This document shows, piece after piece, positions 37,534 through 39,456 of a stretch of 64,000 nt of DNA. Source of the DNA: an uncultured Haliea sp. (GTDB taxonomy: Bacteria; Pseudomonadota; Gammaproteobacteria; Pseudomonadales; Halieaceae); NCBI GenBank assembly GCA_913061145.1, contig CAJXUQ010000005.1, forward strand, positions 1 to 64,000. The letters run 5' to 3'. A program made the position numbers and the translations under genes. The notes under the pieces are model-generated. The model did no database searches. It was not told where the DNA came from and saw nothing but the letters and a program-made list of their open reading frames with translations. Numbering within the stretch: position 1 is the first letter of the stretch; each line of letters opens with the position of its first letter.

Positions 37534-38388
37534 TCAGGCCGCGATTGCGCTGCGCAGTTTCTTCATGGCGTTCTGCTCAAGCTGGCGAATGCGCTCCGCC
37601 GACACCTCGTACTTGGCTGCCAATTCATGCAGGGTGGCCTTTTTCTCCGCCAGCCAGCGCTGGGCGAGAATATCCCGGCTGCGTTCGTCCAGTTCACCCA
37701 GTGCCTGGTAAAGCTGGTCCTCGCTGTTTTCCTGCCAGTTGTCGGATTCGACAGACAGGGCAGGATCGCTGCGTTGATCTTCAAGGTAGTATTGTGGGGC
37801 CTGCCAGGCTTCGTCATCGTCCTGACCCACGGGTGCATCGAAGGCAACATCGCGGCTGCTGAGCCGGCCTTCCATACGCTGGACTTCGGCGATATCGACG
37901 CCGAGGTCGTCCGCAACCGCCTGCGCCTCTTCCCGGCTCAGCCAGGAGAGATCCTTTTTTGCCCCGCGCAGGTTGAAGAACAGCTTGCGTTGCGCCTTGG
38001 TTGTCGCAACCTTGACGATGCGCCAGTTACGCAGGATAAATTCGTGCATCTCGGCCTTGATCCAGTGCACGGCAAAGGACACCAGTCGCACACCTTTTTC
38101 AGGATTGAAGCGCTTCACCGCTTTCATCAGGCCAACGTTGCCTTCCTGGATAAGGTCTGCCTCGGGAAGACCGTAGCCAGAGTAGCTGCGGGCAATATGC
38201 ACGACAAAGCGCAGGTGCGACATCACCAGCTCACGCGCCGCCTCCAGATTACTGTTGAAATAGAGATCCTCCGCCAGCGCTTTTTCGCGCTCCGGAGTCA
38301 GTAACGGGATGCTGCTTACCGCCTGTACATAGGCCGCAAGATTGGCGCCTGGCACCATCTGGTCTACTGGCAGCAACGCTTTGCTCAT
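37534..38388 (-). CDS. rpoH: RNA polymerase heat-shock sigma factor (sigma-32)
   Basis: The 284-residue sigma factor has the same length as E. coli RpoH. Region 2 ([17 protein letters not shown]), the [12 protein letters not shown] motif, the RpoH-box Q-R-K-L-F-F-N-L-R that binds core and chaperones, and region 4 with [19 protein letters not shown] are all present. ATG 38388 gives the usual N-terminus, nine bases after GAGGGG. A perfect CIRCE element lies in its promoter, suggesting direct repression by HrcA. It is downstream of ftsX, the conserved position. Confidence 0.97.
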
Positions 38389-38419
38389 GCGGATATCCCC
38401 CTCTGTCATGTGCCTGATT

Positions 38420-38446
38420 TTAGCACTCTTTTCCTTAGAGTGCTAA
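38420..38446 (-). promoter_or_regulatory. CIRCE element (HrcA operator) in the rpoH promoter
   Basis: TTAGCACTC (38420-38428), nine bases, GAGTGCTAA (38438-38446): this is a perfect match to the CIRCE consensus bound by the HrcA heat-shock repressor. It lies between ftsX and rpoH, 31 bases before the rpoH ATG. On the minus strand a -10-like TAAAAT overlaps the proximal end of the element (38439-38444 pairs inside the arm) or starts just at it, with TTAGCA of the distal arm as a possible -35. HrcA binding would therefore block polymerase. The hrcA gene is not in this window. Confidence 0.92.
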
Positions 38447-38481
38447 CAGCAGAAAAGTTCCCTGGAAGGCCCGTGAACCCA

Positions 38482-39456
38482 CTAGCGCGGGGCGATCAGG
38501 CGCAGGTGTCTGGCGACCGCCAGCCAGGCGCCGGCGAGCCCCAGCAAGCCGCCGATGAGCACCAGATTGAGGCTGCCCATGATGCCCAACCCACCGAGCC
38601 GGAAGTTGCTCTGGTAGAGTTCGGCGAGACGGGTCACCGGGCCGCCGAGAAACCACAGCGCCGCAGCCACCAGCAAGGCGGCAAAGGCACCGCCGCCCAC
38701 GCCGTACCAGAGCCCTGTGTAGAGGAACGGGCGTCGCACGAAGGCATTGCTCCCACCCACCAGCTTGATCACCACTATCTCCTCGCGCCGGCTCTCGATG
38801 GCCAGGCGAATGGTGTTGCCCAGGATCAACACGACACCAGCCACCAGTACGCTGCCCAGCGCCAGCACCACGCGTCGGCTGAGCTGCATGAGGGTGTTCA
38901 GGCGTTCCAGCCAGGCCATGTCCAACACCACCTCGGCAATCCGGGGGTCGCCCTTGAGCTCGGCGTACAATGCCGTCACCGCATCGGACCCCGGCAGCGG
39001 GGTGACCAGCAACACATCCGGCAGCGGGTTGCGCTCCAGCGTATCGAGCACGTCGGCAAAACCTGAAAGGGCGCTGAATTCGGCCAGCGCGGCGTCGCGC
39101 GAGACAAATACAACCTGCTCGATATCCTCGCGCTGCTGCAGTGCAGCCTGCAGCGCCTGTGCTTCATCGGCGCTCACTGACCCGCTGAGGAACAGCGACA
39201 GCTGCGCCGGACTGTCCCAGCGGTCACTCAGGGCACGCGCATTGTCCAGGGCCACAGTCAGCGCAGCCGGTAACGCCAGTGCGATGCCCAGAACCAGCCA
39301 GGTCAGGGCGCTGGAAAACGGGTGATCCAGCACGCGGGCCAGGCTGTCCGCGGCAGACAGGCGATGGTGCGCGAGCCAGCCCTGCAGCAGATGCCGCAGG
39401 CGTGTGCGGCGCGCGCTGGCGCCATCCCGCCGCGGTTTGTTCTCTGCAGCACTCAT
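38482..39456 (-). CDS. ftsX: Cell division protein FtsX
   Basis: The 324-residue ABC-transporter-like membrane protein of the divisome has a cytoplasmic N-terminus, a first membrane helix at about 50-72, a periplasmic loop that would contact a murein hydrolase activator, and three C-terminal helices. Motifs E-S-R-R-E-E-I-x-V-I-K-L-V-G and a final helix L-L-G-L-A-G-A-W are family-typical. Overlaps ftsE by four bases (ATGA). Confidence 0.95.
   Translation of the reverse strand: MSAAENKPRRDGASARRTRLRHLLQGWLAHHRLSAADSLARVLDHPFSSALTWLVLGIALALPAALTVALDNARALSDRWDSPAQLSLFLSGSVSADEAQALQAALQQREDIEQVVFVSRDAALAEFSALSGFADVLDTLERNPLPDVLLVTPLPGSDAVTALYAELKGDPRIAEVVLDMAWLERLNTLMQLSRRVVLALGSVLVAGVVLILGNTIRLAIESRREEIVVIKLVGGSNAFVRRPFLYTGLWYGVGGGAFAALLVAAALWFLGGPVTRLAELYQSNFRLGGLGIMGSLNLVLIGGLLGLAGAWLAVARHLRLIAPR

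Follow-up and report, generated by a model that had tools for sequence, protein, structure and literature searches.

The locus described here raises the question of whether HrcA acts on the gene of the heat-shock sigma factor itself. Repression by HrcA and activation by sigma32 are usually described as separate circuits, and Escherichia coli serves as the gammaproteobacterial model. The window, that is, the whole 64-kb stretch of DNA from an uncultured Haliea sp. that was analysed, carries a CIRCE palindrome directly upstream of rpoH. A preliminary description of the window regarded this as a joining of circuits that normally run in parallel, with the whole RpoH regulon placed under HrcA.

The CIRCE element and the predicted promoters it overlaps

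The palindrome TTAGCACTC-N9-GAGTGCTAA at positions 38420-38446 matches the CIRCE consensus with zero mismatches, in agreement with the preliminary description. It is the single CIRCE match in the 64-kb window at up to 3 mismatches, where shuffled sequences give an expectation of 0.02. The element is located in the 93 bases between the ftsX stop codon (38482) and the rpoH ATG (38388), leaving a gap of 31 bases to the ATG and of 35 bases to the end of ftsX on the other flank (Table 1). The gene order on the minus strand is ftsY-ftsE-ftsX-rpoH, with ftsX and rpoH confirmed by NCBIfam models and ftsY and ftsE assigned by eye. More specifically, RpoH reaches 397 bits with TIGR02392 (cut-off 323), and FtsX scores above the TIGR00439 cut-off. 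Sequence, position and gene content are in this respect direct observations. The rpoH start was set at 38388 because the alignments of homologues begin there. A second in-frame ATG is found at 38409, 21 bases 5' of this likely start and right at the predicted sigma70 transcription start, and a longer, near-leaderless RpoH may be made from it.

Table 1. Coordinates of the features at the rpoH locus of the window.
Feature	Position	Strand	Basis
CIRCE, predicted HrcA operator of rpoH	38420..38446	.	exact consensus; conserved at rpoH in relatives
rpoH (sigma32)	37534..38388	-	TIGR02392 above cut-off
ftsX, upstream same-strand neighbour	38482..39456	-	TIGR00439 above cut-off
Sigma70-like -35 TTAGCA	38441..38446	-	within CIRCE arm; promoter scan
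Sigma70-like -10 TAAAAT	38417..38422	-	half in CIRCE arm, TGC before; promoter scan
Sigma-E-type -35 GGAACTT	38455..38461	-	GAAC in register at 66/70 relatives' sites, 1.0 expected
Sigma-E-type -10 TCTAA	38435..38439	-	CIRCE arm TC + spacer TAA; 15 bases after -35
Purine-rich ribosome-binding-site-like stretch AGAGGGGG	38397..38404	-	8 bases 5' of ATG; by eye

The element had also been placed over the likely rpoH promoter, and the promoter scan bears this out: the sole sigma70-like match between positions 37800 and 39000, TTAGCA-N18-TAAAAT, lies on CIRCE, with a mean of 0.3 matches in shuffled sequences. Judged against a TTGACA-N16/18-TATAAT-like pattern, its hexamers agree at 9 of 12 positions with a spacer of 18, and TG precedes the -10. 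The sigma70-like -35 and half of the -10 come from the CIRCE arms, and conservation extends beyond the operator. When 70 sites from relatives were aligned on CIRCE, positions 28-30 were A (81%), A (80%) and T (98%), which together with the operator's own end give TA(A/G)AAT. The final T of the -10 is also found at 96% of 78 named sites among the matches listed in a scan of GTDB species genomes (see below).

A second promoter-like motif, absent from the preliminary description, is woven into the same element. The sigma-E (RpoE) promoter consensus is GGAACTT-N15/17-TCTRA. Against this consensus, the GGAACTT-N15-TCTAA of the window, ending within CIRCE, matches at 12 of 12 positions. In the 70 sites from relatives, GGAACTTT at -14 to -7 shows a per-base conservation of 80-97%, no base separating it from CIRCE exceeds 65%, and the initial three bases of the CIRCE spacer, TAA, are conserved at 92, 87 and 95%. 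A sigma-E-type motif with at least 10 of 12 matching bases is present at 65 of these 70 sites, compared to 0.9 expected when the CIRCE arms are held and the rest is shuffled. These conserved promoter-like bases are again directly visible in the alignments.

Among the matches listed for the 78 named sites, the motif at the same threshold is found at 51 (1.1 expected) and is missing at 27, while GAAC is present at 46. Beyond the relatives, the -10 is kept more loosely, and TC(T/C)(A/G)A is found in the main register at only 21 of the 78 named sites among the matches listed. The -35 starts at -14, -15 or -16, paired with spacers of 15, 16 and 17, and the sigma-E -10 therefore begins at the same base. 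Furthermore, a second register with the -10 four bases further on occurs at six named sites (-11, spacer 16) and at one more (-12, spacer 17), and two named-site matches lie elsewhere, all among the matches listed. Upstream of 46 rpoH genes that have no CIRCE, the motif was found in 20 (250 bases scanned, 3.8 expected). The window genome encodes both RpoE (TIGR02939, 321 bits, cut-off 236) and RseA (PF03872, 59 bits, cut-off 24), and the two genes adjoin on contig C4.

These motifs and their conservation point to an element that probably functions as an HrcA operator and into which two overlapping rpoH promoters are merged. HrcA would shut the housekeeping promoter as well as the envelope-stress promoter, and heat would free the two. 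Alternatively, HrcA could repress the sigma70-like promoter alone, with GGAACTT/TCTAA representing another element or a hardly used promoter. The weak conservation of the sigma-E -10 at the named sites is what such an arrangement would lead one to expect, but we consider it unlikely, given the fixed GGAACTT-TCTAA spacing in the relatives, a -35 that moves with the spacer while the -10 stays put, a second register that is also properly spaced, and the recovery of the E. coli rpoH sigma-E promoter by the same scan.

HrcA and its predicted sites in the window genome

The preliminary description had proposed a search for hrcA and for other CIRCE sites in the genome, and both were found. The assembly (G000) comprises 3.52 Mb in 53 contigs and is 97.8% complete. 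It contains one hrcA of full length (PF01628, E 3e-61; TIGR00331, 326 bits, cut-off 197), followed by grpE and dnaK, both named by eye. The genome CIRCE search returned no CIRCE upstream of hrcA, and CTTGAAA-type sigma32-like motifs were read by eye, unscored, 5' of grpE and dnaK. In several other genomes of the class, unlike this one, CIRCE lies just 5' of hrcA (G197:C36:64665, G129:C1:1680043, G117:C8:12076 and G264:C30:12166), and HrcA may control its own gene there.

A second CIRCE element with 1 mismatch is located 105 bp 5' of groES, in front of groESL. A third match with 3 mismatches (L004) falls inside an unrelated ORF and was rejected as chance, because a backward control pattern likewise yields one match. 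As predicted from sequence, the credible HrcA sites of this genome are thus two, groESL and rpoH. A similar number is seen in most genomes of the family, where sites at up to 2 mismatches number two in 50 of the 61 genomes, one in 9, none in 2 and more in 0.

The second site belongs to groESL in all 21 cases checked, which comprise 20 second sites picked by hand from relatives and that of the window genome. The groESL and rpoH elements share the same operator, with one site per target gene. They differ in what surrounds the operator: neither the conserved -10 overlap nor the sigma-E block was found at the 21 groESL sites, and a sigma32-like promoter directly follows CIRCE in 17 of them (L003:1501-1527, L304-L323), so that groESL looks to be under HrcA and sigma32 at once.

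Conservation of the element and its association with hrcA

To follow the element across related bacteria, we searched 97 genomes of relatives, the window genome included, for RpoH, CIRCE and HrcA, and took 95 rpoH upstream regions. An hrcA gene is present in 70 of the 97. CIRCE (up to 3 mismatches) stands before rpoH in 66 of 66 hrcA-bearing relatives with upstream DNA, at 27-189 bp from the start of the RpoH match, compared to 4 of 26 relatives that have no hrcA match. These four are G048 and G058 (83% complete), G062 (75%) and G076 (96%); in the remaining 22 the best match has at least 5 mismatches. The count leaves out two genomes with an hrcA match and no good RpoH match (G036, G060) and three with contigs ending at rpoH (G029, G038, G082). 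Second RpoH copies occur in G063, G127 and G271, of which that of G063 (G063:C22:351237-352028), with 50% identity, is located some 10 kb away from hrcA. With hrcA present in the genome and the element conserved in relatives, neither of the two findings that the preliminary description had named as speaking against it was obtained.

The same association is observed across the class, in an evenly drawn sample of 203 genomes that includes the window genome. Here hrcA is present in 144 genomes, and a strict motif (CIRCE core plus -10) occurs in 107, at 126 sites. An RpoH match was obtained in 187 genomes, with its position among the matches listed for 148, and it is these 148 that the following counts cover. 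Among the matches listed, CIRCE (up to 3 mismatches) lies before rpoH in 108 of 113 genomes with hrcA, compared to 9 of 35 without. The strict motif is found 29-219 bp 5' of rpoH in 83 of the 113; of the 30 that remain, 25 have CIRCE at up to 3 mismatches. One of the 108 (G271) has a damaged arm. In five hrcA-bearing genomes (G167, G208, G243, G246, G296), no CIRCE was found before the listed rpoH. Judged by these motif matches, CIRCE at rpoH is the usual arrangement in the sampled hrcA-bearing gammaproteobacteria, and in this sample the joining of the two circuits appears to be no rarity but the rule where hrcA exists.

Among the matches listed, the nine sites in genomes without hrcA comprise seven strict ones, one with 1 mismatch (G111) and one with 3 (G170). 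Five of the seven genomes with strict sites are 62-85% complete, and two (G189, G223) are 98-99% complete. The sites in these 9 of 35 genomes indicate that the site can outlast its repressor, or that hrcA was missed. G172, which also has no hrcA match and was not counted, carries a relic-like CIRCE copy that is apparently broken by an indel. In genomes with no hrcA match, intact or decayed rpoH operators are seen at L274 (G172), L268 (G170), L291 (G111) and L105 (G076). They may be left over from a repressor since lost, or the assembly may lack an hrcA that the genome has.

The association between hrcA and the operator has a Fisher p of 1e-16 with kinship ignored, and genome counts are non-independent events. 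Built from 53 rows and 143 columns, with the family thinned by hand to 18 members, the RpoH tree is poorly resolved and offers only 2 independent pairs on supported branches. Both pairs agree in most of 200 random pairings, a number of pairs at which the sign test cannot attain 0.05. The tree is too weak to count losses, and we argue co-loss from the non-independent counts.

Across GTDB species genomes, a pattern scan in which matches were also selected by distance yielded at least 120 stretches and at least 80 loci. In 79 of 80 named loci among the matches listed, CIRCE precedes an RpoH that is 41-84% identical to that of the window; the remaining one, L148 (Virgibacillus), is without RpoH. 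The alignment used 78 of them, one having fewer than 60 bases upstream. The titles of the named loci among the matches listed include Alcanivorax, Methylocaldum, Woeseiaceae, Halothiobacillus, Dyella, Pseudoalteromonas, Nitrosomonas, Variovorax, Thiobacillus and Geobacteraceae. Three loci titled Verrucomicrobia (L133), Bordetella parapertussis (L141) and Chitinophaga (L183) carry an RpoH that is 54-57% identical to that of the window, and the Verrucomicrobia and Chitinophaga titles suggest metagenome bins that are mislabelled or mixed.

At the level of the phylum, we analysed 160 genomes for exact sites (TTRGCACTC-N9-GAGTGCTAA). Counting the window genome, the site lies before a listed rpoH in 8 of 9 class genomes that have it; outside the class this holds for 6 of 43 genomes. 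All six belong to one family, f212 (G303, G311, G314, G333, G348, G378), with CIRCE 48-86 bp 5' of rpoH. The other non-class genomes comprise 8 without a listed rpoH and 29 with the site elsewhere, where other rpoH copies may be unlisted. These counts suggest that CIRCE before rpoH is no rule for all Proteobacteria.

Proposed control of rpoH and comparison with known systems

From the conservation of the element and its link with hrcA, both of which are observed, we infer HrcA binding and repression, start sites for sigma70 and sigma-E, feedback through GroE and a response to heat. In unstressed cells, HrcA on CIRCE would cover both sigma70-like hexamers and the sigma-E-type -10, and its occupancy would keep rpoH transcription low. 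GroE keeps HrcA active. When GroE is engaged by unfolded proteins, or HrcA is inactivated by heat, the repressor would depart and sigma70 polymerase would raise rpoH; under envelope stress, with HrcA gone, sigma-E polymerase would add to the output. Sigma32 would in turn act on groESL and other chaperone genes, and once GroE is restored, HrcA would become active again. A loss of HrcA activity with heat is reported for Helicobacter pylori in the available portion of PMC10696704.

How far such an operator would govern sigma32 is a separate matter. The statement that the whole RpoH regulon is placed under HrcA goes too far, as what the DNA supports is control of two promoters that overlap, transcription may also run through from ftsX, and sigma32 synthesis in E. 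coli is modulated mainly at translation, according to the accessible part of PMC5745026. HrcA might accordingly bind while local rpoH transcription is minor, with ftsX read-through and translation or proteolysis setting the sigma32 level as in E. coli. The same-strand ftsX, the short gap and a terminator scan that found none on CIRCE would suit this arrangement, as would the translational control of sigma32 described there. We nevertheless hold it to be improbable: the operator has been retained wherever hrcA has, which would be difficult to account for if the operator had little effect, and read-through might itself be stopped by HrcA on its site.

We also considered whether HrcA control has taken the place of an RNA thermometer. 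In folding predictions for 30 and 42 °C, the accessibility of the rpoH start does not differ between 69 relatives with CIRCE and 22 without (p 0.49; change, p 0.91). The value for the E. coli control changed little, from 0.44 to 0.52, which renders this folding comparison too weak to speak for or against either this idea or a sigma32 level set by translation.

Finally, it is hardly credible that the palindrome has no HrcA function, being instead a relic, a terminator or a match by chance. The position of an inverted repeat between two genes and the sites that remain in hrcA-less class genomes among the matches listed are outweighed by the rarity of such a match in the window, its conservation in hrcA-bearing relatives, a full-length hrcA above its cut-off, and the negative terminator scan.

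Beyond an operator fused with two promoters, the reading we favour, there is a broader proposal, on which our judgement is evenly divided. In it, the fusion of HrcA operator, sigma-E and sigma70 promoters in about 45 bp would be the old rpoH control throughout the gammaproteobacterial class with its beta lineages. The state of E. coli would be derived, hrcA and then the operator having been lost and the sigma-E promoter kept, and the overlap would act as an AND gate in which envelope stress raises rpoH only after HrcA leaves. Our data suggest that in hrcA-bearing members the circuits run in series, with HrcA above sigma32 and sigma-E entering at the same 45 bp. If so, the way in which betaproteobacteria and many gammaproteobacteria of sea and soil respond to heat would have to be read differently, and the short piece of DNA involved allows series control to be tested directly.

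A CIRCE upstream of rpoH was already published in 2004: Table 8 of Rodionov et al. (PMC545781) gives an exact CIRCE before rpoH of Geobacter sulfurreducens, at -51, predicted from sequence. In our literature search, CIRCE before rpoH turned up in the accessible text of that paper alone, and neither the class-wide rule nor the promoter fusion was found; earlier notice is quite possible. G. sulfurreducens resembles the window in having an exact CIRCE shortly 5' of rpoH. Among the delta-proteobacteria studied there, the element is reported for this one, with the promoters left without comment in the portion available (PMC545781). The Geobacteraceae locus of our scan (L172) differs from the window in having neither the -10 bases nor the GGAACTT block.

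In Bordetella, SigE transcribes the Bordetella rpoH in vitro, the B. bronchiseptica gene being called fam, and rpoHP3 of E. coli is sigma-E dependent; HrcA and CIRCE go unmentioned in the available part of this paper (PMC3490749). The E. coli rpoH resembles that of the window in its sigma-E-type promoter, which our scan identified as TGAACTT-N16-TCTGA, and differs from it in having no CIRCE, the best match showing 7 mismatches. E. coli also gave no HrcA match in the control panel of the HrcA profile search, and as a species without HrcA it may be the exception.
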